From NCBI GenBank assembly GCA_948567375.1, contig OX419760.1, forward strand, positions 62,864,911 to 62,928,910: 64,000 nt of DNA, written 5' to 3'. The stretch's first letter is position 1, and each line of letters begins with the position of its first letter. The position numbers and the translations under genes are program-made. Below, in pieces: positions 22,881 through 59,859 of the stretch. Source of the stretch: Lunularia cruciata (Eukaryota; Streptophyta; Marchantiopsida; Lunulariales; Lunulariaceae). Below the pieces are notes generated by a model, which saw only the letters and a program-made list of their open reading frames with translations, was not told where the DNA came from and did not search any database.

Positions 22881-23455
22881 ACTTCAAGCTCAAGAAAATT
22901 GCCACCATGCAGTTTCTTTGACTTGTCCTGTCATCTGGACGTGGATGACTCCAGTCACCAATAATCAAGGGGAGTTCGTTTTTGTAACAGTGCTCGTGCA
23001 TCCGATCCATCTACGTACGAACAGCTTTCTCGGCTTTTGAACTCACTGTTGCGTGTCTTATGTGGTCGTGATTTCTTGTGAAAGGTCGGAAGGACCATTT
23101 CAAGCATGTCGACGAATTTTACAAAAGCAAGTTTACCCTAGATCTCCCGACTTCTTTCGTTCATGGCTCCAAACAAGCGTGATAGCCTCCGCATACGTTG
23201 CAAAGAAGTCGACAACGCGTGCACGCAGCGGTGTCGCCTGACCTGAGTGGGACCATAGTTTATGCAGCTGATGTCATGACATTGACAGCATAAATGGAGC
23301 AATTATACTTCTCAACATGCAACCTATCCCAAGCAAATGGAAGCTCTTCTTTGGTAATTGATCCATCTTCTTCAGCACTTGAATTACTGTCTGAGGATAG
23401 ACATTCCTTCTTCACGACGCATTCTCCCCCGAAGAATTTATGTGCGGGTGGAAAA

Positions 23456-24996
23456 ATGGCATTACTCAGCCGTCTTGTAACAATCGCCGCAGTTTTCTTG
23501 ACCTTGTTTCTTTCAGCTAGTGCCCAATTGATAGACGCTCCGGAAGTTCAGGAACCATCTGGAAGTGCAGTGGAGTTCTACCAGGATGACTGCCCAAGAG
23601 CGAGAGCAATCGTAGCCCTGTCAGTTGCCAATGCTCTCAGAGTAGACAAGGGCCTGCCAGCAGAACTTCTCCGTTTGCACATCAACGATTGCTTCGTAAG
23701 GGTACGTAAGCAGCAAGTGTTGCCGAATTCGAAGATTGCGTTTCAACATTTAATATTTTCGTCTTCCAGTTTGCTCTCCAGTAGCGCATCAATATTAATG
23801 CGGTTATAAATTGACCACATTTGGATTACTGTACGCATGTACTTAACACGTATGCTGCTTCGAAATTTCAGGGGTGCGATGCTTCTATTCTCTTAGAGTC
23901 AAACCAGACCAATCGGGCCGAGAAAGACGGGGTTGGAAATGCGTATACATTGAGAGGATACGAGTTTCTGGATGAAGTCAAAGCCCAACTAGAAGACGTC
24001 TGTCCTGGAGTTGTGTCTTGTGCAGATCTCATCACCCTCGCAGCTCGGGATGCTATCGCTAATGTAAGTTCTACTTATTGAGAGGGCTAGCATCCGGATT
24101 CTTGCCATGTCGTGAAGTCATGTTTGTTTCCAAAGTAAACCGATTTTAAAAGTCACTGTAGTATAAATGATTGAAGGGTTGGCTTAGTTAGACTTATATC
24201 TCAAGACTCCCTTAGCTTCTGTAATTTATCACGAAGACCTGCTAGGCTCTATATATCTTCTCGTAACCTTGTGCAGATCGGAGGTCCCTCGTGGGGAGTT
24301 GTTTCGGGGCGAAGAGACGGCTTCACTTCTATTGCGTCAGAGACTTGGCGCAATCTGGCACCTCCTTACGCAGACTACTGGTACCTTTTGAACAGATACC
24401 AGAGGAAAGGATTTACAGAGAAGGAGATGATCGTCCTCCAAGGTAATGATTTCAGATCAACTATCAGATATCTCGCTGACTAGAACTTAAATCTATTCAG
24501 CAATATGTAGGAGGCTAAACAAGTACCAGTGGGTTCGATCAGCATAAGAAATGTCCTTAATTCTTTTTCTGATTCGACGCCAACAGGTCGGAACACTATC
24601 GGCGTAGCACAGTGCGGGGTGATCCAATCCCGCCTTTATAACTCCTCTGGTCCCGGTGGAGTTGACCCAACTCTTAATCCAGCATTTGCTGCTGAGCTGA
24701 AAGAGCAGTGTCCGTTCGGAGATGTGATGAATCAGGTGTTCCTGGATCCAACCCTCGGTGGATACAGTTTCGATAGCAATTACTTCAAGAGAGTGGAGGC
24801 AGGTCAGGGAGTTTTAACCTCTGACGCTGCACTTATCACCACGGCAAGTGGTCGTGCTCTTGTTGCGGAGCAAGGTCAATCTCCTCGGGCCCCTTTCTTC
24901 CAAGATTTTGCTGATGCAATGGAGAAGATGAGCAACGTTCAGGTTCTTGTAGCACCCAAAGGGGAAATTAGACGTAATTGTGCGTTCGTCAACTAA
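23456..24996 (+). CDS. Class III peroxidase-like protein lacking both haem histidines
   Basis: Exons 23456-23701, 23872-24063, 24277-24442 and 24587-24996 join to 337 residues, a normal length, with introns in the three classical class III positions (phases 0, 0, 1). Residues 1-23 form a signal peptide, so the product should be secreted to the wall or vacuole. All eight disulphide cysteines are present, as are catalytic Arg73, the distal Ca site (D..V.G.D.S in DCFVRGCDAS), GGPSW and the FDSNYF block. The distal motif, however, reads RLHINDC instead of RLHFHDC (Asn77, codon 23684-23686), and the proximal motif reads GRNTIG instead of GAHTIG (Asn204, codon 24592-24594). Peroxidase chemistry and normal haem ligation should therefore be lost. 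Frames and splice sites are otherwise intact, so it may be a pseudo-enzyme. An in-frame ATG at 23294 is possible but would bury the signal peptide. Confidence 0.88.
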
Positions 24997-27090
24997 ACAA
25001 ATCTGACCGATTAGAGCTTGTACTCGGTCCTGAGATGTAATTACATTCCGTCACCCACCAATCCTTACATTTTGAATCCTGAGACCGGATAACTCCGAAG
25101 AGTCCGCAAGGGTGCCCATCAATCGCATGATCCTGAGATCTTGATTTTGCCAACTCTGCACTGTAGAGAACTTATCTGAATGTAAGAACTGCAGATATCT
25201 GGCAACAAATAGCAAATGCCCTTGTAAAAAGCAGCTATTAGATAGTTTGGGCTGTTGGTGATTGGACTTGCAGGTCATGACCTTGGACATTTCAATTACC
25301 AACAACCTTCAAGTAGACTCATTTTCCACTTCAGATTTCTCACAAGTGGTGTTCCGATGTCCGAAGGACTGAACACATGCTTGGTACCGTGCTTACATAT
25401 GAACTTCAAAGTTTGTGCAAACATGAAATCTCGTTTCGCTGAAGTGTAAGATTGCAAGTATTCAAAGCTTATCCTTCTTATAAAGTTTAATCAACTGGCT
25501 CGAGGTTCGATAACTTACTCTAGTTCGATCTATTTTTCAAAATGGAATGTCGGTCATACTAGGCAGAATGGGTCTGTTCTGGCCTCCTATTTCCTCTCAA
25601 CCTTGAAGTGAACTTCCGATTTTGCTTCTCAATCACACATAACGCCGAAACAAAGCATGAGAATTTTCAGCCACTTGTTGTTGGGCCCGTTAACACTGTG
25701 CGAACCTACTTACCACAAATCTGAATTGTAGTCCAAAAGCACGGAGTCTAGAGTAAGTTTCTTGAGAAGTGCATATTTCACGTCGAAAACTCGAAACGAA
25801 ACAGTGGTGAATGAGATGCACGAATGCAAGTGTAAACCATTACCTGCAGATTTTCTTGTTTTATCTAGATACTTAGATAGATGTAAATGGAAGGATCTGG
25901 TAGTGGAAAATCATCGCAGTTAAGTGCGCAACGTATGTATCTCAGGACATATCAGTCATTTTAAGATGGATCCAAATAAGAGCTTATTATGATAACTGAA
26001 TTTTCTGCAAATCTATTGTCTTCTCATATAGAACAACAGCAAACATACATTATTCGACATCATTCGACACCAGAAAAATTTATGTTGTAGATTCCAAATG
26101 ATCTCATGTTCTATAATATTATATTTGATTCCTGTAACAGAAATTGTCGCCAGAATTCGTCACAAGTGCCTATAACGTGGAGAGATACTCTACAGTAACT
26201 GTCACAAAACTTGTTAACATGATATTACAAGGTTTAAGATAGCTTTGATGTTTATGCTTTGAGCTTTACTGTCATTAGACATGATATGGTCTAAAACTAC
26301 AGATGAATCATGTAATTATCAGACTATATAAATTTCAGTAAGTTTTTCATAAATTACAATCACTTGAGAAATGAAGATTAGAAGCTTTAATATAGCTTTG
26401 ATGTTTATGTTTTGAACTTTACTGTCATTAGACATGATACATAGTCTAAAACTACAAAATCATGTAATTATCACACACCATAAACATTACCACACACTTT
26501 CAATAAGTTTTCATAAACTACCAAAATTTAGCACTACACCTATAAAGCTATCGAGCTCCATTAAAGAAAAATGTTTTCAACCTCAATTCAAACCTCGCCT
26601 CTCCCAAACCTAAATAGTTTTGCGTGACTCAGTGGAATATCATTGAGGATTTGGTTCTCTAATCACTGAGGGTTAGGCATGACACTAACAGGGTGAAAGT
26701 GTCGAGACATGATTCGTTAAATTTGTCGTGCGATTAAACAGTAGTAGGAAAAGAAACGTAGAAGTACAACACATACAACCCAGTTCTCAGACGACAGGCA
26801 AAAGTTTCCGTCGCCGAAGACAAACCCCGTCCCAAAACCAGTTTCCCCGGGCACATCAGAGGTGCTTTTCGGCTAGTTTTGCACTCCGATCACTTCTTTG
26901 TCACTGAGGGTTTAGGTTTTGTCGGCGAATCCATCTTTACCCAACCCAATTGTAGTGCCCTAATCCGTCAGGCGACCAACTCGCTAGGATTTGGAAGCGG
27001 AGTCTTCGCTCCAGCGAAAGGGGTTTAGGCACTGGGAAGTCCAGCAGAGGAGAAAGATTGCAATTCTCTTCTCGACGAAATTGAACCTCC
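24997..27090. other. Intergenic between peroxidase and NOP9-like gene
   Basis: No gene seen. It holds the 153-bp-period duplication at 26230-26530 and, from about 26800, the GC-richer promoter and 5' leader of the downstream gene. Confidence 0.5.
26230..26530 (+). repeat. Diverged tandem duplication, period about 153 bp
   Basis: The blocks tagctttgatgtttatg, ttactgtcattagacatgat and aatcatgtaattatca recur in the same order. The first block starts near 26240 and its partner near 26393. The copies differ by several substitutions and short indels. Confidence 0.75.
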
Positions 27091-27105
27091 ATGGGATGGG
27101 GCTAA
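27091..27105 (+). promoter_or_regulatory. Four-codon uORF overlapping the NOP9-like start
   Basis: The first ATG of the leader (27091) opens a four-codon frame ending TAA at 27103-27105. It overlaps the main ATG at 27096 in another frame. No other ATG is seen in the roughly 200 bp upstream. Ribosomes would have to scan past it, which could dampen translation; this is inference. Confidence 0.45.
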
Positions 27106-30100
27106 GCAGGAAGAGAGCAGAAGCAGAGTTCTCGCCCATTATGAAGAAGAGGCAAAAGAGTTCCGGGGGTGGCCGAGGGGGTGGGGCACGAGGGAGAGGA
27201 GGAGGTAGAGGTGGGGAAAAGCGCCGAACAACTCGTTATGATGAGGAAGAGGAGCAGCATGGTGAAGAATTCCAAGCTTGGAAATCGGAAGAAGGAGGAG
27301 AAGGGTTGAGCTTATCGAGGAAACGGTTAGATCCTTCGACGAAGAGCTACTTTTTGGAGATTGCAGCGCTGGTGAAAGATGGAGGGAATGAGGAAGAGAG
27401 GGAGAATATTTGCGTTAGTGCATTGGAGGAAACTAAAGGACAGGAATTGCAGTTGGCCTGCGATCCTGGTTGCGGCAGGGTTTTGGAAACTTTACTTAGT
27501 TACTGTGATGTCTCTCACATTGTTCAGTTCCTCCAGCGTTGTAGCTCTGTCTCGGTTAGTATGGCTGTAGATCCCGGAGCATCTCACAGTGTGGAGGGGG
27601 CATTAAAGTCTGTTGCGAGAGCTTTGATTGATGATACCGCCCATTCGGCGGATTGGTTTCCGCTACTTGAGTCCACCCTGTCCAATATTTGCCAGGTATT
27701 TTGAGGCACTGAAATGTTAATTCAATTTTATCGTTCTACCGGTGGATACTAGTTGTGTATGTCTCATGCACGAGAATCCGTAGGTGAATTGGCATACGCC
27801 GAGAGCAAACTTACTTTGTCAATCTGGGTAGGGTTTAGGGGTTACGCAGAATCGCTAGATTTGAAGAATTTCGTACGAGCTCCTCTTCTGCTGCCCTGAA
27901 AATTGGCATTATCATCAGTAAACTCTAATTGATCTTGCATGGAATGGGGGTCAGCGAGAGAGTGGAATTTGACCGCAATTAAGACTATTTCGTTGGTCGA
28001 TGTAAGTCGTTCCGAGGCCTGGCGGGGTGTATACGCAAGTAAGGATTAAGGGGCAGAGTGGTTTAAGTAGAATAACATGGTTTAAGAGTCTGTGGAGGTT
28101 TTTATTCTCCTGTTTCATGAATTTCGATTATCATCTTAACTTGCAAGAAAATTCATAAAATGTGGAAATAATGAATTTAACCATGAAAAGCTGGATTGCG
28201 TCAGTTGTGATTAGTCTTCTTCGGGCTTGGAGGAAGCCGTACTTCATTTAAAGGCATGTAATTTTTCGAATTGGCAACAATGCAGGAACTCGGTGCTCAG
28301 GCTGTGGATGTCATGTGCAACCGATATGGATCACACGTGTTTCGCTGCCTTCTGTCTCTTCTGAGTGGCGAAACGGCCGACCTCCTTGATCAAGTAAAGG
28401 GAGGTGCAAAGCAAACGAGGAATCTTGGTAATAAGCTTGGATCGTTTCGGTCTAAGGACGTCATGCGGCCGAAAGGACTTGCGTTCCCCAAGCTACTCAA
28501 GAATTTAGTGAGAACAATTTTGCACAGCTCGAAAGGAAGCATGGCACAGGTGCGAGCTGATATGTCTGGAGGTCCAGTACTGCAGGTACACCTACCTGGT
28601 GATTATGAACGTCATATGTCACATAAGCTCAGGTTTCATGTACCTCTGTTCCTGTTCAGTCCCTCACGTTCCGAGTCATTTGGTCACCTATAAAGTGAGA
28701 TTTAAACACGCTGGCCCAGTAGAAGTATAGGTTGGAGAAGCACATTACGAACTTGTACGCGCTATCAAGTTCTTACGGATCTCGGTGGACACAGTAGCCT
28801 GCACTTCGAGTAAATTAATAATATCTGAAAATTACAAGCAGAAACATTGCAACGTTTGTTGGTGTCACGTTAGCACAGTCTAAGAGGGAACCAGATGATC
28901 ACTACTTATGGCAGCAAGCAGCAGTGCATAGGTCTTGGCCGAACGTATCCCAACCTCTTTTTACCTTCACAGTGTCTAACAATGTGTTGTCAACAGGGGC
29001 TATTAAAGGCGCTGCAAGGGAACCAGGAGGCAATCACACAGGCTGTTGCAGGAATTCTAGATTGCGAAATGGACAGCAAAACCAAAGAGGGTTCTGTTTT
29101 GGAGAACGCACCTGTAGAAGACATTGTATCAGCAATGGAAGATCGCAGTAGCAGCCACCTTATGGAGGTAATTCCTGAATTCACTTTTGTAACCCTCCAC
29201 GTACCGCTGCGAAGAATGTTCTTAGTGAGCTGGTTAATGATCAGTTATATGCCGTATCGAACGTTAGAGGTTATGCAGAGAGACAAAGTTTGTACCTTCA
29301 CATCTGCTTATTGAAGGACCGGGAAAATGTACGTCCATCTCGTTACACATGAACAATCGTTGCGACTCACTTCAGTAGGCACAGAGGTCTCGTTTGAAAT
29401 GCACGATTCTCGAGTGTTTTTGCTAGAGTTTCAATTGCCACCAGCCAGCCCCTCTAGTTGTTTGTTAGGTTGACAGATATCTGATCAAGGAGTGACAGAT
29501 ATGCTCATACTGATTATTTACTGCTTCCATGTGTGGTACCTGGCCCACCCATACTGTTCTACATGTGCTGATACAGGTCATCATTCAAAGTGCACCAAAT
29601 CCTCTATACGTGGAGATATTTCAAAGATTCTTTAGGAAGCGGTTGTTAAAACTCTCTCTCCATCCGTCCGCCAATTTTGTCGTCCAAGTGCTGATTTCGT
29701 GTGCCAGACATGAAGGGCAGGTATGTTTATGAATCAGTGACTTACATGCATCCATAGGATTCAATGCCAGAGGATTACTAGTGCAGACCATCAGCATATT
29801 CCTGGAAATAAATCATTGTTCTCACAGAATATACATAGGGCGGTTGTCGTCTGATATTCAAGTTGGTCATCCTTGGCACTATACTATGACAGATCAACAT
29901 GATCTTCGACGAACTGGAAGGGAACTTTACTGACATCATCTTTGAGAAGCGAGCCGGTGTTCTCGCGGCTTTGCTGTCTGCCTGTGGCCGTTTTCACACC
30001 AAGCAACGAGAGGTATGCGCCGTACTGAAGTTTTTAATAATAAGTACCCTTCCAGTTTCCGGTAGGAGCAATCTTGACCCTGCTGGACTCACCCCTTCCC

Positions 30101-36980: not shown

Positions 36981-40641
<3,661 letters not shown>

Positions 40642-47518: not shown

Positions 47519-48532
47519 ATGGATCCGCAATTGCAAGAGTTGGTGCAAGGAATGCAAGGCATGTTGAATGAATTTCAAGAGATTAAAATGACCATGGAGA
47601 CATTACAAAGTCAAGTGCAGATCCTCAGGAACGATCAGGCCATGCAAGAAGAAGAGCCATCTCAAAACCTAGTACCTGCGACTGAAGTACTTGGAGAGGC
47701 ACCTGTGCCTACAAACCCTATCAACGATGAAGCCACATTGCTACTCCGGATGAAGAAGACCTGCAACATCGAGTCTTACAAGGGGTAGCGTACGATGGAA
47801 GTAGTGGAAAATTGGATCTCGAGAATGAATCGATATTTTCGATTGTTCTCAACAGAGATCACAAAGCATGTTGTAGGTGTGTTTGCATGTGGGTACTTGA
47901 CCGAGAAAGCCCTCACATGGTATGATGCTTGGGAACGATCCATGCTAGCAGAGAGAAGGGAGGTCACATGGACAGCAATGCAAGAAGGACTGTTGAAGAA
48001 TTTCCAATTGGTGGATTCTGTGCAGATGGCTCGAACCCGACTATGGGGATTGAGACAGAAGAATAGTGTACAAGAGTATGTGGAGGCATTTCTGGATCTA
48101 CAAGTTGCAATTACCGACATGAGTCCAGCAGAGGCTCTCAACAATTTCAAACGAGGGTTGAAAGAGCGGATTCGCCAAGAAGTCATGGTGCAAAACCCTC
48201 GCACGGTATTTGAAGCTATTGCTTGTGTGCAGAGAATAGCAAGAGCATTAGGTGGAGGTGAAGGAGTAGTTCCACCTCAACATTATCGGGCAGAAATGCC
48301 ACACATGGGTGGAACAGTACCGATGGAATTGGGCAACCTTCGATTCCGGGATCGAGGAGCACGGCCGCTTCAAGGGGAGTGGGGACGGGTAGAAGAACGA
48401 AGAGATGGAGTCCCACGAGGAGAAGGGACTTGAGGAGAACAACGCCGTTGTTACAATTGTGGCCGTATTGGGCACATATCTACCAATTGTTGCACTCATT
48501 TCCCTAGAGGCCCTCGGCCTTCGTACAAGTGA
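47519..48532 (+). pseudogene. gag: gag of element A
   Basis: The frame runs 337 codons from ATG 47519 with two nonsense codons (TAG 47786-47788, TGA 48431-48433). The first part is a coiled-coil-like Gln/Glu-rich segment. The middle is a Ty3-type capsid (NWISRMNRYF, ALTWYDAW, LKNFQLVDS-like core). After the second stop is a CX2CX4HX4C nucleocapsid knuckle at 48449-48490. Gag forms the virus-like particle and binds element RNA. The pol frame starts in another phase. Confidence 0.85.
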
Positions 48533-48672
48533 TCTTTGAACAACATGGAGAGGTACATTGAAGAGGAGGAGGTGGAAACCACTTTGGAAAACGAAGATCG
48601 CCAATAAATGTACCTTGCGGCCTTACTGGCTCAATAAGGAAGCAGAGAAGCGAGGGAAGGAAGAAGAATAAT

Positions 48673-51123
48673 GTGCAAAGATCCCGAAAGGCAACCTCAC
48701 AATTGATTGTCATGAATGGAATCCTAGAAGGTAATCAAGTGAGAGTATTAATAGATCCAGGAGCAACAGAGAATTTCTTGTCTCGCTCTGTTGCAATAAG
48801 CTTGGGAATGGATCTAGAGAGAGATGGAAGTGAAGAAGTAGAGTTACCAAATGGGCAAACAGAGAGGATTGAATCATTACCAAGACGGGTAACCCTCTCT
48901 ATAGGAGAATATCATGAAGCAATTGAGTGGCGAGTGATATTGTTAGCCCGTTATGATGCAATTTTAGGCATGCCATGGATGGAGCAGTACAATCCAATGG
49001 TGGATTGGAGGAAGAAAGTAGTGAGAACCCACCAATGGTCAATCATTGGGGTTAAAGAAAAATCACACAGGCAGAAACTGCCTCTATATATCATAGGGAC
49101 GACAACTATCTGTAAGACCGATAGATGTTTTATGGGTCTAATAAGAGAAGTCCAGAGTGCACAACTCGTTGGACAAATTCCTGAGAAATTGAAGGATGTG
49201 GTGGATGAGTTTCAAGATGTCTTTCCCGATGATCTACCCTCAGGATTACCACCTAAAAGGCGAGTAGATCACAAAATAGAGACACTCCCGGGGAAGACAC
49301 CTCCTTGTAAGGCCCCATATCGCCTATCACCTCATGAGTTGGAGGAGTGTAAGACTCAAATTGAGGAGATGCTACAGAAAGGGTTCATCCAACCTAGCGT
49401 ATCACCATATGGGGCCCATGTCTTGTTTGTGAAGAAGAAGGATGGTACAATGCGCATGTGCATTGACTATCGGGGTCTCAATCAGCAAACAGTGAAGAAC
49501 AAATACCCCTTACCTCGCATGGATGACCTGTTTGATCAACTCCATGGAGCAAGATACTTCACCAAACTGGACTTGCAGAGCGGTTACAATCAAATCCAAA
49601 TTGCAGAGGAGGATGTGTACAAAACTGCCTTTCGAACCAGGTATGGCCACTTTGAGTATCTTGTGATGCCTTTTGGCCTCACCAATGCGCCTGCCACTTT
49701 CATGAGCCTAATGAATGACATATTTTGTCCATACTTGGATAAGTCTGTTATTGTCTTCTTGGATGATATCTTAGTATATAGTAGCATGATGACAGAACAC
49801 AAACAACATCTACGAGAGGTCCTCCAGATTCTAAGACGGAATCAATTGTATGCCAAAATCTCAAAGTGTGAGTTTGGCAAGTCTGAAGTAGACAACTTAG
49901 GGCATAGAGTAAGTGCAGATGGCATTCAAGTATTGATTGATAAAATAGGGGTCATTCAAAAATGGAGTGCCCCAGAAGATCAAACTCAACTTAAGAGCTT
50001 CTTGGGGTTGACGGGATTCTATCATAGATTTGTCAAGGACTTCTCCAAGGTGGCATAGCCTTTAACGGCACTACTTGGCAAGGGGAAGAAGTGGACATGG
50101 GGAACTGCACAAGAGTTGGCCTTTCAAGAATTGAAGGCCGCCTTGCTACATGCACCAATCTTGAAGTGGTATGACCCAAAACATCCAATCAAGTTGGCTA
50201 CAGATGCATCAGGCGTAGCAATAGGAGCAGTCCTACAACAAGAGTGGCATGACGGATGGCATCCAATTGCATATTTCTCTCGAAAGTTGTTACCGGTAGA
50301 GCGCAACTACCACACCACAAAACGAGAAGAGTTGGCCATCGTTCTAGCAACCAAGCATTGGAAGCACTACCTAGGCGAGAAGGCATTTGTAGTAGAGACA
50401 GACCACAAACCTTTAGTCCACCTTGAGACACAAAAGGATCTATCTCGTCGCCAAATTTGGTGGGCAGAGTGGCAACAACGCTTCAACATGACAATCACCT
50501 ACGTGGAAGGTAAGAAGCAACTTGTAGATGCATTCACCCGCATGCCAATGGCCAACAACTTGGTGGCAGAGGTTAAGATTAACCCTGAATTCTGGCAAGA
50601 GATTCTAGCTGCTATAAAAACTGATCCACAGATTGTAGAAGCGCAATCATCCAAAGATGTCACCAGCACCCAAGGACTCACCTTTCGGGAGGGTCGATTG
50701 TGGATCCCAAATGTCCCAGAATTACGCACCACCATTCTAGCGGAATGTCATGATTTGGCCATTGTAGCTCATGTCGGAGTGGACAAGACCTTGGAGGCAG
50801 TCAAGCGCCATTACTATTGGCCCAAGATGAGCAATAACGTGATGGACTATGTGCGTAGTTGCCTACTTTGTCAACAGAACAAAGCTTCTAATCAAGCTCC
50901 TGCAGGGCTCCTTCAACCTCTCCCCACTCCTACCCAACGTTGGGAACAAGTGAGTATGGATCTCGTTTGTGAATTACCCAAGACCACCTCAGGGTTTGAC
51001 TCCATTGTGGTCTTTGTGGACCGGCTCAGCAAAATGATTCATGTAAGCCCTACCACCAAGGAGGTGACCGCTCCACAACTTGCTCAACTATACTTAGATG
51101 CAGTCTTTGCTCACCATGGCTTG
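48673..51123 (+). pseudogene. pol: pol of element A, 5' part (PR-RT-RH-IN)
   Basis: One frame with a single TAG at 50056-50058. Protease: [11 protein letters not shown], where the usual DSGA reads [46 protein letters not shown] and the catalytic FLDDILVY. RNase H: LATDASGVAIGAVL and ETDHKPL. Integrase: zinc-binding H/C region ending CLLCQQNK, and first catalytic Asp in SMDLVCELP. The frame is cut by element B after HHGL and resumes in phase at 58948. No good ATG starts it; presumably it was reached from gag. Confidence 0.9.
51119..51123 (+). repeat. Probable target duplication of element B, left copy
   Basis: GCTTG here and at 58946-58950. It overlaps the first bases assigned to the LTR by one to two positions, so the exact border is uncertain. 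Joining across it restores the integrase reading frame. Confidence 0.6.
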
Positions 51124-51811
51124 TGAGCCGGCCTGTCTCTCACTCAAGATGAACCTCTGATGGCTATTATGGTAGCGCACCATGGACTAAGAAGGCAAGG
51201 AACCCAAACTCCATCATACTCCTCCAAGGCTAACACTCCAAGACTCAAGACATTGCTCACTTGAAAACTCAATGAGAGAGAGATAGTTGCAAATGAAAGG
51301 ATGATGAGTACCTCCTCACCCCTTGTTTATATACTTGTGAAATAGTTACGTACCAAAGTTACTAATTACCATAGTAACTCAAGTTACTAGACTAAAAGTC
51401 AAGTAAAGTCAAAAAGTAGAAAGGAATATCCATTCACATGGGCATATTCCCCTAAGCATGTGGTCTTATCTTGACCCAACCACTAAGTCAAGGATTCCTT
51501 CACATGGGCTATCCTTGGAATAAAGAAGAATCCAAAAGAAAAAGGTTTGTGGGCCCAAGAGTTCTCAACTCTTTCCTCAAAGCCAAACACCTAGGAATAA
51601 TGCCAAGTCAACACACTAAAATCCAAAATAGTGGTGCTCATCTTTTCTACTTCCTCTAAAGTAAGGTCCACTCTATCTTAGCTATGACTAACTTTAGCAA
51701 ACCATGACTAATATAGAACCATCCTTTATCTCTATAAATAATATCTCTTAAGTACTTGTAATACCAAGCTAAATATTACAATACCACACACATGCACAAA
51801 TGGGTGTTACA
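51122..51811 (-). repeat. 3' LTR of element B
   Basis: Ends ..GGGTGTTACA on the + strand (TGTAAC.. as read in the element). It is preceded, in element orientation, by a purine-rich tract (51812-51824). It matches the other LTR except for about seven substitutions, four of them outside the outer 16 bp. Confidence 0.93.
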
Positions 51812-51859
51812 TTTACTCCCGGACTAAGTTTTCACTTTGTCCTCAAAGTGAAGGTCTCT

Positions 51860-53713
51860 CTACCTTCTATGGTACATCTTCAACTTATCATGGTTAATCC
51901 TATCAAAGTGTCTTCCTCCCAACTCCTTGAGATCATAGGTGTAATTGCCCCACACCTTCTTCACTATGAAAGGTCCAAAGTACTTAGGTAAAAACTTCTT
52001 TTGCACTCTCTTGAATCGAATGGAATCAAACAACATTACCCAATCACCTTCTTTGAAAGGCTCTACCTTCTTCTTGCCTTGCCTCTTATCATAGCTCTCC
52101 TTTTGTTTCCTTTGGGCTTGCTCCACTCGAACCATAGCAACTGCTCTTGCCTCTTCCAACTCCATGAGTTGTTCCTTCCTTGACTTCTCTGCATCACCTC
52201 CTTGTGCTTTCTTCAATTTCCTATGAATGCTTTGGAAGGTAGGAAGATCAAAGTGAATAGGTAAGGTAGACTCAATACCATACACCAATTGAAATGGAGA
52301 ATATCCGGTGGAAGTCTTCATGGTTGTCCTATACTCTCACAAAACTGCATGAATCCTCTTGTCCCAATGATGTTTAGCCCCCTCCATTTCTGCATCTTTG
52401 GCCAACATCATGCACAAGGTCTGATTGGTTCTCTCTGCCAAGCCATTGGAATTTGGCTTATAGGATGTAGTTACTCTATGTGTGATAGAGAAATGTCGTA
52501 GCATGGCTGTAGTAATGCTTCCTATAAACTCTCCTCCTCTTTCAGAAACCAACTCCAAAGGGCATCCAAACCTAGTGATAATGCGTTCATAAAGAAATCT
52601 ACCCACTTCATCTTCATTCTTGTCCCTCAATGGTCTAGCCTCAACTCACTTGGTAAGGTAATCAGTAACTACCACAATGTACCAATTGTTCCTTGGGGTT
52701 CTATTGAGAGGACCTACAAAATCAATTCCCCACTTCTCAAAAGGTCCTAGCAATGGAATTGATCTAAGTGGTGGAGTGGATGTAGACTTTCTAGCAAAAG
52801 CTTGACAAACATGACAAGTTTTGCAATAATCAAGACAATCCTTGAAAATCCTTCTCCAATGGTAACCTGCATCTAGAATCTTGAAAGCAGTCACCTTTCT
52901 TGCAAAGTGTCCTCCACATACTAAGCCTTCATGAAACTCCTTTATGAGTAGGATAGACTCTTCCTTACCCACTGCTCTTCGAAGTAGACCATCTGCTCCT
53001 TGGTGAAAAAGAATATCCTCCACCATTATGTAAGGTCTAGATCTTGCTGCAAGGGCCTTCCTCTCCCTAGCATGCATCCCTTCTGGATAGTTACCTCTTG
53101 TCACAAAATCCACAATCTCCTTGTACTCCATTGGAACCTCTTGAGTGATTGAGATTGTCATGAGCTCCTCATCCGGGAAGGAATCATCCACTGGCTCATC
53201 TCCATCATGATCATAGGCTCTAGATAATAAATCAGCATTTGCATGTTTCTTTCTTGGCCTATCTTCAATGGTGTAGTCATACTCAGACAAGAGTATCATC
53301 CACCTTGCTAGTCTCCCTTCAACATTAGGCTTGTTGAAGATGTACTTCAAAGCCTTGTGATCCGTGACAATGGTGGCTTTCCCTCCAATCAAGTAGTGTC
53401 TAAACTTCTTGAGACCAAAGATCACTGCCAACCCTTCTCTCTCCGTGACAGAGTAGTTCTTCTCTGCTGAAACCATCTGCCTACTAGCATAAGCTATTGG
53501 ATGATCATGCCCATCTTGGTCTAATTGACTAAGAGTGCATCCTATAGCTACATTAGAAGCATCAGTGTAGAGGATGAAAGGCTTACTCCAATCAGGTTTA
53601 GCAAGAATTGGAGCTACAACAAGGGATTGCTTGAGCTCCTCAAAAGCTTTGAGAGCCTCCTTGTCCTCCAAAATCACTATGTAATCTACACCCTTCTTCA
53701 TGTAGATGGTCAA
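51860..53713 (-). pseudogene. pol: RNase H and integrase of element B
   Basis: In one frame, read right to left: RNase H (LYTDASNVAIG, VTDHKALKYI), integrase zinc region (HEGLVCGGH, then CKTCHVCQ), catalytic core with GIDFVGPL, then LVSERGGEF where the second catalytic Asp reads Glu, NGLAERTNQT with the Glu intact, and a C-terminal KYFGPF-type domain ending in HRR. TGA codons at 52646-52648 and 52337-52339 sit where Trp is expected. No chromodomain follows. Confidence 0.88.
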
Positions 53714-53755
53714 TGCATAAGCCTTGTTGGAAAATGAGAAGATGAACCTCCTATA

Positions 53756-54552
53756 CTATCCAACCATCCCCAAGAATTGGCGTAACTTTGTCAAGCTTGA
53801 AGGGAATGGAAGGTCTGAGATTTTCCTTACCTTCTCAAGATCAACTGCTATTCCATCCTTGGAGATGATGTGCCCCAAAAGTAGACCTTCTTCACATCCA
53901 AAAATGCACTTCTCTGGGTTGAGTGATGCATTTGCCTCATCTAAGCATTGCAAGACTTTGATTAGGTGTTCAAAGTGCTCCTCCTTGCTCCCATAGACAC
54001 AAAAGTCATCAATGAAGTCTCTCACAAATTTCCCAATGAAAGGTTCAAATACCTTGTTCATGAACCGTTGGAATGTGGCTGGAGCATTGCAAAGCCCAAA
54101 AGGCATGACCTTGAAAGCATAAGTTCCCCAAGGTGTGGTGAACGTGGTGAGTTGTTGATGCTCTGGTGCAATCTTGATTTGGTTGTATCCACTATAACCA
54201 TCTCCAAAACTGTACCTCTCATGACTTGCAACCTCCTCCAAGATCTCATCAATGAATGGCAATGGGTAGTAGTCCTTCTTGGTAACAGCATTGAGCTTCT
54301 TGTAATCCACACATACCTGAAGCTTGCCATTCTTTTTCTTCACAATGACAATTGGAGCACCCATTCTAAATTCTCCACCTCAAAGATAAATCTAGCCTCC
54401 TTGAGCTTATCAATCTCCTCCTTCACAACCAAAGATATTGGTGGGCTAATGCGATGTTGCTTTTGGCGGATTGGTCTTGCATGTGACTCCACCTCTATCT
54501 TGTGCTCCTCCAAGGTGACTTCCTTCAAATCCTTGTAACTAAAAGCAAACAC
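53756..54552 (-). pseudogene. pol: Reverse transcriptase of element B
   Basis: The start (54552-54340: FAFSYKDL, HRISPP) is in one frame. A one-base shift near 54355 leads to the main frame with APIVIVKKKNGK, VDYKKLNA, GYSGYNQI, MPFGLCNAPATF and the catalytic FIDDF. It ends at TAG 53756-53758 in the connection region (FLGMVG), in phase with the RNase H part. Confidence 0.88.
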
Positions 54553-56684
54553 ATGGATGACTTGCAGAAAATCTCCTCAAATCTCACCTTCTCCTCCTTG
54601 GTAACATTTGGGCCATACTTGAGGGTAGATAACCTTCTCTCTACCTCCTCAAGTGTCAATGGTGATTTATCTGGGTCCTTCAAAACCTCAGGCTTAGGTG
54701 CAAAATCCATAGCACACAAAGGATACACATCTGAATCAGATTCAGATTCATCCTCCTCCGTGGAAGTCTCCTCTTCCATGCTTGTGTCCACACCTGAAAC
54801 TCCTTCTTCAGAATCTGATTCCCAATAATCAAAAGATGGGGTATCTGAATGTGAAGTGTTGGTGGTGTTAGTCACAAGAACAGTGACTCTATGGTTTGAT
54901 GGCCCAATACTCAAGTACCCTTTGTGCCATCGATCAGTTGTGCGTGCTGCTCTCAACCATGGCCTCCCAAGAAGTAAGTCATAGCTTGAATCCTTCAAGA
55001 CTTGGAAAGTCATGAGATTTTGAACTCCCATAATTGAAACTACCACCTTATCCATCACCCCTACTGGTCGAACTTGTTGCTTGTTTGCCATGCTCACCAC
55101 AAATGTTGAAGGTCTTGAGGGTATCATACCCAACTTCTTCATCAACCTTTCTGACATGGCATTCACTGCTGATCCTCCATCAACCAATGCATCCTTGATG
55201 TTGTGACCATTCACTCTCACATCAATCTTGGAGGCATATTCACAAGCCTCCCATGGTGCTAGCTTGGCATCCACCACCCCCAGTGATATTGGAACTTTTG
55301 CCTTCTTCTTCTTCTTGCTCCTTGTAGAACTCAAACCACCTCTAAGCTCCTTTCTCAAGGTAGGGTTCAAAGCAATTAATTGGCCCACTGTGATATTAGC
55401 CTTGTGACTACCAACATCCTCCAACACATTGTAGTTCCATTGTTGCTTTGAGATCAAGAAGTCCTCCATCCCCAACTTCTTCCTTGGAGTCTTTGTTGTT
55501 GATGGTGTTGAGGTGCGAGTGCTCCTAGTAGACATAGGAGTATCCTTGCTTGAAGTAAATCCTTGAGAAGAGTGAACATCCTTTGCAAAACGAGCTCTCT
55601 TCTTCTCTTGTGCCAAAAGCTCCAAATTAAGACCCTTGGAGTTTGAGCACTCTCCCCTCTCATACTTGCTCTCCACCACATCTATGGATGCTATCCCCTT
55701 ACCTTTTTTGGGATTAGGAGCCACTTGGGTTTCACTACCTCCTTCTTTCCCTCTATTGGCTCCCTCATAACCCCTTCCTCCATGGTAAGTGGAATTTGGG
55801 CAATTCCTTTGGATATGGCCTCTTCCTCCACAACCAAAACAATTTCTATCATTGAAATTGTTGGCTGGTTGGCCTCCTCAATATGGATAGTTTCCATAAC
55901 TCCTAGGCCCTCTCCCTACATTCTGATCCACCTCTCTCTTCTCCCATAGTTGCACCACATTGATCTTGAGATCTGCAAGTTGTTCTGTGATGGTTTGGAG
56001 TGGATCTTTTGGTGGAGGTGCAAGAACTGGAGCAACTATTACTTGTGGTGCAACCCTTGTCACCAAAGTATCAGAAGTTCCACCATACTTGTAGCCTTGA
56101 GGAGGATGCACAACCTCCTTCACCACCAAATCACTCTCATCCCCTTCCAAACTCTCCTCCATACGAATTGCGATCTTGATAGCTTCAACCTTGGAAGAAG
56201 GTTTCTCATATCTCACCTTGCTTCTAATTTGTGGTCTCAATCCTCCCACAAAATTCTTGGTGAGCATGGCCCCTATGCCAATCATTGTAGTCTCCACATC
56301 ATCCCCACCCTTCCTCAACACTATGCGAAATCTGGACTCCAACTTTTCCACTCTTTCCACATAGACTCTCACTTTCTCTCCATCTCCTTGCTTGAGAAAT
56401 GTAACCTCACTCATCAATCTCTCATAACTCTCATCAGGAAGAAAGTTCTCAATGAGTGCTGAAGTCAAAGTCTCCCAAGACTCCTCTTCCCCCTCTCTCC
56501 TCTCTCTCTTTTGGTATTCTGACTCATACCATGTAAGTGTTGCATCCTCAAAGAAATCTGGTAATAATGAGGCCCACTCATTCTTCCTCCTCTCATTGTT
56601 TCTTATGCAAGCTCTCTTGAAGTCTCTCACAAAGGCCTCCACATCTTCTCCATCCTTGCCAAAGAAAACTGGAAGTTTTCCCAT
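54525..56684 (-). pseudogene. gag: gag-protease of element B
   Basis: One frame from ATG 56684 with a single TGA at 55878-55880. Capsid: FFGKDGEDVEAFVRDF, LTWYESEY, NFLPDESYERL. Just after the stop lies a CX2CX4HX4C knuckle (CFGCGGRGHIQRNC, about 55800-55845). The protease region reads ALVDGGSAVNAM and LLLGRPWLR; the DGGS form occurs in other plant elements. The frame changes again near 54570 before RT, by a mutation or a programmed shift. Confidence 0.88.
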
Positions 56685-56920
56685 CTTAACCCCTCACTAT
56701 CTTTCTTTTCTCTCAAAATTTTTTTTTCTCTTTTCTTTTCTCTCACTCTATTACTAATAGAGTATATACATGACTAACACCATCTGAGAATAATCCACTC
56801 TAGGGAAAACAAAAGGTTCAGGTTGCTCCAAGATTTCTATAGCAACATCAAATCCTAGAGTGCATATTAATCTAACTCTCATGGATAGTTTATCCATAAA
56901 TTGAAAGATTATCTCCATCA

Positions 56921-57394
56921 CTAATCTTGAGAACTAGCTGATGAAGGTGGTAGTATTTTTGTAGTTGTACTAAGACTCTCTCCAAGATCCTTCACCAAAG
57001 TTTCCAAAAGTGCTTTTACTCCACTACACTCATGTCCTTTTGGAAGTCCTTCAACTCCACAAACCTCACACAACTCCTTGGTCTTAGATCTTCTCCCTCC
57101 CAATCTTGGTGAAGAAGGTCCAACATGCAAACCCAAGTCAAGTAAGCCTCTCCTTTCCCTCAATCTCTTGCTCTCAAAGGTCAATGGACATGAACTTGCC
57201 TTATGTCCCTTCTCTCCACATAGAAAACACTTAGACTCACTCTTTCCTCCAAGTGGTGTAGGTTTTTGGATCCTCTCAATACTCTCTTCAAATTCTATTG
57301 TAAACTCTCTTTTCCTCAAATCAACCCCTACAATCACCTCAAACCCTTGGGGCACCTTGCATAATCTCAATTTCCACTCTTGATGACCCTCCAT
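56921..57394 (-). CDS. Extra CCHC-bearing ORF upstream of gag in element B
   Basis: An intact 157-codon ATG-started frame between the leader ORF and gag. Its middle holds a CX2CX4HX4C knuckle (CFLCGEKGHKASSC), and a second Cys/His group follows (CEVCGVEGLPKGHEC). The first third has FEVIVGVDLRKREFTIEFEESIERI, a possible beta-rich strand pair. It is separate from the gag knuckle at about 55820. An overlapping upstream frame (57587-57339) is also open and may be its frameshifted start. It could be an accessory nucleic-acid-binding protein or a captured host fragment. The family is not recognised. Confidence 0.55.
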   Translation of the reverse strand: MEGHQEWKLRLCKVPQGFEVIVGVDLRKREFTIEFEESIERIQKPTPLGGKSESKCFLCGEKGHKASSCPLTFESKRLRERRGLLDLGLHVGPSSPRLGGRRSKTKELCEVCGVEGLPKGHECSGVKALLETLVKDLGESLSTTTKILPPSSASSQD

Positions 57395-58042
57395 GTTCCC
57401 AAGATGAATCTAAACACTCAAACATGCTTTTTGTTGATCTCAAACTTCTCATGCATGAGATCTCCACTCTGCAGAATTGACCCTTCCTCACAATGTCACT
57501 CAAATCTCCCAACCAATATGTCACAGTCCTCTGAAATTTTTCACACTTGATTACAACTCCAGGGCGTCCTTCCCTGCAAAATTTCAAATCTTTTTATCAA
57601 GCCATTTGGCCTAGACATCTTTCTATTCAGCACCCATATTTCAGATTTGGTCTGAAAACCACCCCCCCCCACTTCAAAAACTCATTTCTCCCTGCGCAAG
57701 AACGATCTCTTTCTAATTTTTGTGGCAGCAGGTAGGATACAATGCACTGAATTTTCTTGGAAATTTTCAGGATAATTCACTTAAAATTGAAGAAATGCCA
57801 GACTCTGTACAATTTTCCAGAGAGCATGCAGTTGCGGGAGCACTTTACCCTATCAACTTTCAAAAATTCTAGCCCAGTGCGCATAGAAGCTCTCACAATA
57901 ATTTCAAGTGTGCTAACTAAAAGATAACCCAAGCTATCCTGTGTAGAAATCTCAAGTCCAGATCTCAAACTTGAGATTTTGCCCAAAATCACCTTAATCC
58001 CCAAAATCTGCAATACACCTCACACAATCTCTCCAATTTCTC
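57395..58042 (-). other. Leader of element B between small ORFs
   Basis: Minus-strand frames at 57587-57339 and 58013-57777 are open, but only the former looks possibly coding (it overlaps the CCHC ORF). A short C-run lies at about 57661-57670. Confidence 0.4.
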
Positions 58043-58213
58043 TCATGTGTACAAGATGTACAAAATCACCTCAAAGATATCATAATGAACTACAGGGTAT
58101 ACAAATAGATCTTGGTTCTCTAACATAAGTTCAGCCCTCTCCTCTCCTAATGTTCTCTCCAAGTGAGCTCTCATAGCCTCCTTCTGCCTAATGTAGAATT
58201 GGACGCGGAACAT
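58043..58213 (-). CDS. Leader ORF of element B
   Basis: A 56-codon frame whose ATG lies about 20 bases after the primer site. It reads FRVQFYIRQKEAMR, LGEER, FVYPVVHYD and LYILYT before TGA. It resembles the two leader ORFs of element A in motif order, length and C-terminal end. It is far from gag (56684) and not in the same message segment as any known domain. The function is unknown. Confidence 0.5.
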   Translation of the reverse strand: MFRVQFYIRQKEAMRAHLERTLGEERAELMLENQDLFVYPVVHYDIFEVILYILYT

Positions 58214-58231
58214 TATCTTGCCTTCTAGAGA

Positions 58232-58250
58232 GGTCCCAGCAACGGAACCA
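58232..58250 (-). promoter_or_regulatory. Primer-binding site of element B
   Basis: On the minus strand TGGTTCCGTTGCTGGGACC starts four bases after the 5' LTR end. It begins with the obligatory TGG. The cognate tRNA was not assigned; it is not the iMet type used by A. Confidence 0.7.
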
Positions 58251-58254
58251 AAAA

Positions 58255-58944
58255 TGTAAGTCGTCCTGTCTCTCACTCAGGATGAACCTCTGATGGCTAT
58301 TATGGTAGCGCACCATGGACTAAGAAGGCAAGGAACTCAAACTCCATCATACTCCTCCAAGGCTAACACTCCAAGACTCAAGACATTGCTCACTTGAAAA
58401 CTCAATGAGAGAGAGATAGTTGCAAATGAAAGGATGATGAGTACCTCCTCACCCCTTGTTTATATACTTGTGAAATAGTTACGTACCAAAGTTACTAATT
58501 ACCGTAGTAACTCAAGTTACTAGACTAAAAGTCAAGTAAAGTCAAAAAGTAGAAAGGAATATCCATTCACATGGGCATATTCCCCTAAGCATGTGGTCTT
58601 ATCTTGACCCAACCACTAAGTCAAGGATTCCTTCACATGGGCTATCCTTGGAATAAAGAAGAATCCAAAAGAAAAAGGTTTGCGGGCCCAAGAGTTCTCA
58701 ACTCTTTCCTCAAAGCCAAACACCTAGGAATAATGCCAAGTCAACACACTAAAATCCAAAATAGTGGTGCTCATCTTTTCTACTTCCTCTAAAGTAAGGT
58801 CCACTCTATCTTAGCTATGACTAACTTTAGCAAACCATGACTAATATAGAACCATCCTTTATCTCTATAAATAATATCTCTTAAGTACTTGTAATACCAA
58901 GCTAAATATTACAATACCACACACATGCACAAATGGGTGTTACA
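58255..58944 (-). repeat. 5' LTR of element B
   Basis: Same length as the partner at 51122-51811. It contains tctataaataat-like core sequence near 58862-58875 on the + strand. Confidence 0.93.
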
Positions 58945-59859
58945 AGCTTGTCTCGAGTACTCATCACCGATAGAGGCACCCAATTCACCAGTTTGTTTTG
59001 GCAAACACTCTTTGGTTTCTTCAAAACCAAGTTGGCCATGTCTACAACTTACCACCCACAAATAGATGGCCAAACAGAGCGGGCCAATCGCACGATCGAA
59101 GACATGTTACGCGGCTTCACCTTGGAAGAGCAAGAGAGGTGGGACACCTTACTACCGTTGGTGGAATTTGCTTACAACAATTCAGTGAATGCCTCCACCC
59201 AGGTCACTCCATTCTTCCTCTTGTATGGTGAGCATCCCTTCACACCTTCTAGCTTGATGAAGATCCGTCCAGTGACTACCAAGGTTGATGCAGTCAACAC
59301 ATTTGTTTCTAGAATCCAACAAGGTGTGGAGAGCGCCAAGCACAGGTTACAGATTGCACAAAATCGACAAAAGCAGTATGTTGATGCACACCGTAGGCAC
59401 ATGGAGTTCAATGTTGGGGATCAAGTGTGGCTATCGACAACCAACCTCACATTAGTTGGATCTCGTAAGCTCAGACCTTGTTTTATTGGGCCTTTCTCGA
59501 TTCTTCGTCGCATCGGCGCTGTGGCCTATCACCTTGAGCTACCACCACACATGAAGATCCATCCAGTGTTCCATGTCTCCCTATTATGCAGATATGCTTC
59601 CCGATCAGGCCAAGGTCCTTCCACACAAGACATTCGACCTTGTCCAACAGTCATTGATGGCATAGAGGAATATGAAGTGGAGCGGATTCTCCAAAAGCGC
59701 ATGCGTGGTACTCGCCATCCGTGGGTGGAATATCTAGTACAATGGAAAGGTTACCCCCTCTATGAAGCAACCTGGGAACCCGCTGCCAATTTGGCACATG
59801 CACCGGTGTTGGTGCAAGCATTTGAGCAACAATTGCACAACGAGGATGTTGCGTCTTAA
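58945..59859 (+). pseudogene. pol: pol of element A, 3' part (integrase and chromodomain)
   Basis: Continues the integrase cut at 51123, in phase. LITDRGTQF holds the second Asp and QTERANRT the Glu, so the DDE set is complete across the two parts. A GPF-type domain follows (FIGPFSILRRI), then HPVFHVSLL. The C-terminal chromodomain, from 59668, shows EYEVERIL, YLVQWKGYP and ATWEP, all aromatic-cage positions of the family. Chromodomains can guide insertion to marked chromatin. The stop is at 59857-59859, just before the polypurine tract. Confidence 0.9.

Follow-up and report, generated by a model that had tools for sequence, protein, structure and literature searches.

We find that a peroxidase gene of the window (the whole 64-kb stretch of DNA analyzed, C10:62,864,911-62,928,910, in a genome of 565.8 Mb in 74 contigs) has lost both haem histidines, that its changes at conserved positions are concentrated in the haem cavity, and that its reading frame is intact. 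We favor, with moderate confidence, the reading that this gene, hereafter the query, has been retained and encodes a secreted protein of the class III peroxidase family that carries no haem; from its sequence, it probably still functions, though not as an enzyme, and is not a gene in decay. Judged by sequence, the query descends from the class III peroxidases but fails the enzyme definition of the class, since Asn occupies both haem His sites.

The query lies on the plus strand at positions 23456-24996 of the window, and its four exons join into a coding sequence of 1014 nt that specifies 337 amino acids without a single internal stop; the three introns (170, 213 and 144 nt) are all of the GT-AG type. 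Identical exons were recovered when the query protein was spliced-aligned to the window, which is a consistency check and not independent evidence. An alternative in-frame ATG occurs upstream, at 23294, but the start at 23456 was preferred because the N terminus is then signal-like and similar to the start of L061, a paralogue that is described below. The apparent signal peptide of approximately 23 residues was recognized by eye. The eight cysteines (residues 46, 79, 84, 126, 132, 211, 243 and 333) would be bonded as four disulphides. A processed pseudogene, or one recognizably decayed by lesions, was considered and rejected, as the query has no stop and retains three introns. No second copy of the query was found within the 64-kb window, and no relatives were found in prokaryote genome contigs or viral contigs, neither collection being described as holding plants. 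Two other open frames in the window, both on the plus strand, matched a NOP9-like PUF domain (26988-27704) and myo-inositol-1-phosphate synthase (37620-38198), and are ordinary host genes. The segment from 47789 to 59859 contains pieces of Ty3-type retroelements on both strands (RT, RNase H, integrase zinc domain, gag and chromodomain), and the location of minus-strand pieces between plus-strand ones suggests a nested insertion.

Table 1. Coordinates of the query gene, its haem-cavity residues and its sister gene. Positions are those of the window unless a contig is named; counts of residues refer to the 28 reference paralogues of the same genome.
Feature	Position	Strand	Remarks
Exon 1, codons 1-82	23456..23701	+	apparent signal peptide, mature N terminus, distal helix RLHINDC
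Intron 1	23702..23871	+	GT-AG; no xHDC peptide in three forward frames
Exon 2, codons 83-146	23872..24063	+	GCDAS distal Ca site, AEKDGVGN, CPGVVSCAD
Intron 2	24064..24276	+	GT-AG
Exon 3, codons 147-201 and first base of 202	24277..24442	+	
Intron 3	24443..24586	+	GT-AG; no xHTxG peptide in three forward frames
Exon 4, rest of codon 202 to 337 and stop	24587..24996	+	proximal helix GRNTIG to C terminus
Glu70 = HRP Ser35	23663..23665	+	on cavity list; G in 12/28, A in 12/28
Arg73 = HRP Arg38	23672..23674	+	kept
Ile76 = HRP Phe41	23681..23683	+	Phe in 27/28
Asn77 = HRP distal His42	23684..23686	+	codon AAC; His in 28/28
Ala174 = HRP Pro139	24358..24360	+	Pro in 27/28
Tyr187 = HRP Phe152	24397..24399	+	Phe in 28/28
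Gln201 = HRP Ser167	24439..24441	+	Ser in 27/28
Arg203 = HRP Gly169	24589..24591	+	Ala, Gly or Ser in 28/28
Asn204 = HRP proximal His170	24592..24594	+	codon AAC; His in 28/28
Sister gene L061, four exons	C10:4,659,923-4,661,145 plus upstream exon	-	same contig as query

The class assignment is based on the whole chain. The query matched PF00141 with 221.3 bits (residues 56-298, against a cut-off of 27), and its best relatives in the PDB were class III plant peroxidases, led by the royal palm enzyme 3hdl at 232 bits. Nearly the whole mature protein was covered by 25 of the 26 PDB sequence matches. Descent from class I was rejected, since the sole class I match, 1iyn, scored 37.6 bits against the 232 bits of class III, and the query groups with class III paralogues. 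In whole-chain homology, apparent signal peptide and eight cysteines, the query resembles the known class III proteins (HRP C1A, 3hdl; PF00141), and it also shares with HRP C1A and 3hdl the calcium ligands, Arg38 and Asp247. Unlike the class III enzymes, however, it lacks both haem histidines and four further conserved cavity residues.

Query sites were given HRP numbers from the alignment with HRP, which confirmed the central claim of the original prediction that both haem histidines are replaced by Asn. Both His codons read CAC in L061-L064, so that each Asn codon fits a single C-to-A change, also as predicted. To place these losses among the others, conserved positions were defined as those at least 95% conserved among 28 reference paralogues of the same genome (L052, L066, L002, L028 and L014 being excluded), which gave a set of 56. 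The cavity set was the published HRP list with His42 added, and it was taken from a docking paper, not from measured coordinates; the haem-site list of that paper includes F41, P139, F152, S167 and H170, and His42 is named there as an interacting residue (PMC10812671). The query has lost six of the 56 conserved positions (F76I, H77N, P174A, F187Y, S201Q and H204N), and all six are at the cavity, which accounts for only nine of the 56 positions available (p = 2.6e-6). On the printed list, without His42, five of the six losses are at the cavity versus eight of 56 positions (p = 8.4e-5). The result was also examined at other thresholds of conservation: three of three losses were at the cavity at 100% (p = 0.0017), six of eight at 90% (p = 3.7e-5), and six of 12 at 80%, the other six being outside (p = 5e-4). 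The remaining three conserved cavity positions (R38, L166 and G173) are intact, and all 47 of the 47 non-cavity conserved positions are retained. The query also keeps the distal residues D78, V81, G83, D85 and S87 and the proximal T205 and D264, which we take to be the calcium ligands of class III, as well as E99, N105 and Asp281, the equivalent of HRP D247. HRP D222 was misaligned, its likely match being the conserved D255, which is kept. Thus, Arg73, the distal calcium ligands, the eight cysteines, the three introns and the whole frame are intact, as had been stated. What does not hold is the claim that exactly the two haem residues were lost, since F41I, P139A, F152Y, S167Q and G169R (HRP numbering) have changed as well, and 11 of the 21 cavity positions that could be polarized are altered.

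The peroxidase family of the genome provided the frame for this comparison, and the large size of its class III part points to a land plant. At the exon level there were at least 231 PF00141 matches, so that most of the family is probably outside our sample, which comprised 80 loci with 44 distinct 3' ends and 45 genes (L063 and L064 counted apart, the query included); gene models of the paralogues were predicted from sequence by spliced alignment. Among the 44 sampled genes other than the query, every distal and proximal site that could be read was His, the unreadable ones being the distal site of L054 and the proximal site of L065. Two of these 44 are, by their motif, presumably class I ascorbate peroxidases. 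A motif search of the same genome for the distal Asn returned 14 places, the query included, compared to seven for a control pattern. One of them, C10:940254, was rejected because its sequence is not that of a peroxidase, and among the matches listed none of the other 12 was at a peroxidase position.

A tree of 34 rows, drawn from the same genome, placed the query as sister to L061 with a support of 99/94 and on the longer of the two branches (0.44 versus 0.25); left out of this tree were L004, L005, L054, L065, the seven near-identical L018-L024 and the duplicate query locus. L061 is the closest relative among the genes sampled, 64% identical to the query over 296 codons and at a fourfold-site distance of 0.58, and its exons 2 and 3, like those of L062-L064, equal those of the query in length. 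It differs from the query in retaining FHDC and GAHTIG. Three class III copies are decayed by their gene models, L052 with three stops, L065 with a stop and a missing part, and L066 with a stop. They are the opposite of the query in that they have stops but keep every readable His. Conserved positions lost by L066 number seven of 56, none of the seven at the cavity, and those lost by L052 four of 56, of which one (L166) is at the cavity. Intact paralogues can also vary at cavity positions: L079 (C12:19,143,500-19,147,500), in which the third splice junction of the model is doubtful, carries the milder changes F41Y, P139L and S167T, with both His kept. Two other features of the family are recorded here. 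The divergent pair L002 (C2:7,989,800) and L028 (C2:29,981,665) reads RLFAHDA in place of RLxFHDC, retaining the distal His, and Ala stands for both cysteines of the distal disulphide. On C2, four class III matches of equal score (69,010,019; 69,086,437; 69,162,842; 69,239,246) are spaced by 76,418, 76,405 and 76,404, which suggests that a 76-kb unit has recently been multiplied in tandem.

The focus of change on the cavity was also seen on a codon tree of the query and five paralogues, all from one genome and with synonymous sites to the outgroups near saturation. Of the polarizable positions, 11 of 21 in the cavity had changed along the branch of the query, compared with 35 of 183 in the rest of the protein (p = 0.0015); for the sister branch the corresponding counts were 0 of 10 and 26 of 174, and change outside the cavity was not different between the two genes (p = 0.33). 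An unconstrained branch test was uninformative, placing the query dN/dS anywhere from 1.0 to the upper bound depending on the model (p = 0.15 against 1), and for this reason equal synonymous time was imposed on the query and its sister in the base codon model. This equality is an assumption, which was judged reasonable because a single duplication within one genome gave rise to both genes and because relaxing it gains less than one log unit (only 0.78 in the partitioned model, and 0.98 without L072). With equal time, the query dN/dS was 1.17 in the cavity, not different from 1 (p = 0.62), and 0.35 outside, which is below 1 (p = 1.9e-8) and below the cavity value (p = 5e-4). The sister had values near 0 in the cavity and 0.30 outside, the latter being indistinguishable from that of the query (p = 0.50). 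Five fits were compared: the base model, one that omitted the two His codons, one that omitted L072, one in which equal time was relaxed, and one that combined the last two changes; the cavity exceeded the outside in all five (p at most 0.0016). With equal time relaxed, the query dN/dS rose to 2.7-3.1 in the cavity and to 0.83-0.91 outside, the latter indistinguishable from 1 (p = 0.84-0.94). Thus, the expectation of a dN/dS below 1, taken outside the cavity, holds when equal synonymous time is imposed but not when it is relaxed. The broader view that selection, not random decay, has shaped the gene agrees with the cavity-focused change, the rest being held and the lack of a stop, although not in its wording of exactly two lost residues.

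The main rival, which we consider unlikely but by a good measure the strongest, is that the query is an early pseudogene that lost catalysis first and is now drifting, having yet to meet a stop or a frameshift. In its favor, the whole-gene dN/dS with equal time is higher than that of the sister (0.42 versus 0.27, p = 0.034), the values without equal time do not differ from 1, and L052, L065 and L066 show that family members do decay. In one unconstrained model, moreover, the query branch had only 0.063 neutral substitutions per codon with dN/dS at the upper bound, and at that length the open frame means little. The length of the query branch was, however, 1.09 substitutions per codon with equal time and 0.445 in one model without it. 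In neutral simulations, a stop-free frame was obtained in 0 of 4000 runs at 1.09 substitutions per codon, and with a probability of 0.002 at 0.445 and 0.04 at 0.25; from stops alone, the 5% limit is reached near 0.23 neutral substitutions per codon, a value bracketed by the simulated lengths of 0.2 and 0.25. Given the length of 1.09, the unconstrained span is at most about a fifth of the separate history of the query. Over a span of this length, no more than about five cavity changes of all kinds are expected, and the query has at least 12 nonsynonymous ones in 21 codons (p = 0.004). A Poisson count of 18 differences in 23 cavity codons (p = 1.1e-5) was set aside, as it includes synonymous and unpolarized differences. 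Since the 12 changes exceed the neutral span, the cavity changes probably began while the frame was still kept. Drift also fits poorly with the clustering of the changes in the cavity in place of a scatter, and with the retention of the eight cysteines and of every conserved position outside it.

It is quite improbable, in our estimate, that the query is still a haem protein, in which Asn or some other nearby residue ligates the iron differently and the redox chemistry is altered and slow. Residues that shape the haem pocket in HRP (Arg38, Asp247 and the calcium ligands) are kept, and haem may remain bound in a cavity that has lost its ligand, as the imidazole rescue of the H170A mutant of HRP would indicate; Newmyer reportedly found in 1996 that the activity of this mutant is rescuable by imidazole. 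Against this, the cavity now includes the bulky or charged residues Arg203, Gln201, Glu70 and Tyr187, and it lacks Phe41, Pro139 and Ser167. The idea that the Asn codons are artifacts of assembly or sequencing, or that an incorrect splice model has missed the genuine His codons, is barely credible, as six conserved positions and site 203 are altered in separate codons, the splice sites are GT-AG, exons 2 and 3 match those of L061-L064 in length, and an alternative exon that could supply the His, looked for in the introns and at the edges in three forward frames, was absent in that no xHDC or xHTxG peptide occurs there.

For the preferred reading, that of a retained and haem-free protein, we propose the following course. 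Duplication of a haem-competent parent would have produced the query and its sister, after which both the histidine that ligates the haem on the proximal side and the one that serves as acid-base catalyst on the distal side would have been lost from the query. Loss of His170 leaves the iron without its ligand, and loss of His42 removes the acid-base catalyst. The H170A mutant of HRP is reported to have 0.004% activity towards ABTS (PMC4439038). By analogy to the chemistry of HRP, we infer that the query does not turn over H2O2, and it is probably without haem. Side chains of Ile, Asn, Tyr, Gln, Arg and Glu would have moved into the places of the haem cavity, and selection would have held the scaffold, i.e., the eight cysteines, the calcium ligands, the structural residues, the splice sites and the frame. 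The query may then act by binding in the cell wall, as a scaffold stabilized by calcium and disulphides. In one form of this model, perhaps the most likely, it would occupy the wall or partner sites of active paralogues and thereby damp them; in another, it would hold a different ligand in the remodeled cavity. A non-catalytic role, probably in binding, is supported in its general direction; our confidence in a binding role in the cell wall is low, and the identity of any ligand would be a guess. In Marchantia polymorpha, 189 class III genes are reported, 39 of which were found in the wall proteome (PMC8792609).

A known parallel exists in class I. APX-L (TL29, APX4) is described as a protein of the thylakoid lumen with a peroxidase fold but without catalytic residues, reportedly unable to bind haem, although the protein is abundant and its knockout has a phenotype (PMC8069737). 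According to the same account, most angiosperm APX-L have Leu41-Asn42, the distal His of the charophyte proto-APX-L is likewise changed to Asn, and the proximal His was lost mainly through small deletions (PMC8069737). The Ile76-Asn77 and Asn204 of the query resemble the Leu41-Asn42 so described. The query differs in being a class III and apparently secreted protein, in contrast to the plastid, class I APX-L; in keeping Arg38, whereas APX-L is said to keep no catalytic residue; and in having lost the proximal His by substitution rather than mainly by deletion. Since the two belong to different classes, their origins would be independent. We therefore put forward, tentatively and at a little short of an even chance, that the query is to class III what APX-L is to class I: a secreted protein devoid of haem in which a cavity-centered release of selection, with the scaffold held, would have turned a catalyst into a binding protein, the aliphatic-Asn pair at 41-42 being reached independently. 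Among the matches listed in the open-licence literature (titles and starts of abstracts), no haemless class III peroxidase was described, which is weak evidence of absence.

If true, such a loss in class III would have occurred independently of that in APX-L, as a second event of this kind, and one located in the apoplast. The haem site would here have been lost naturally from a scaffold that is otherwise conserved, the same genome would provide a sister of catalytic appearance with which to compare it, and the non-catalytic roles of wall peroxidases would thereby become directly testable.
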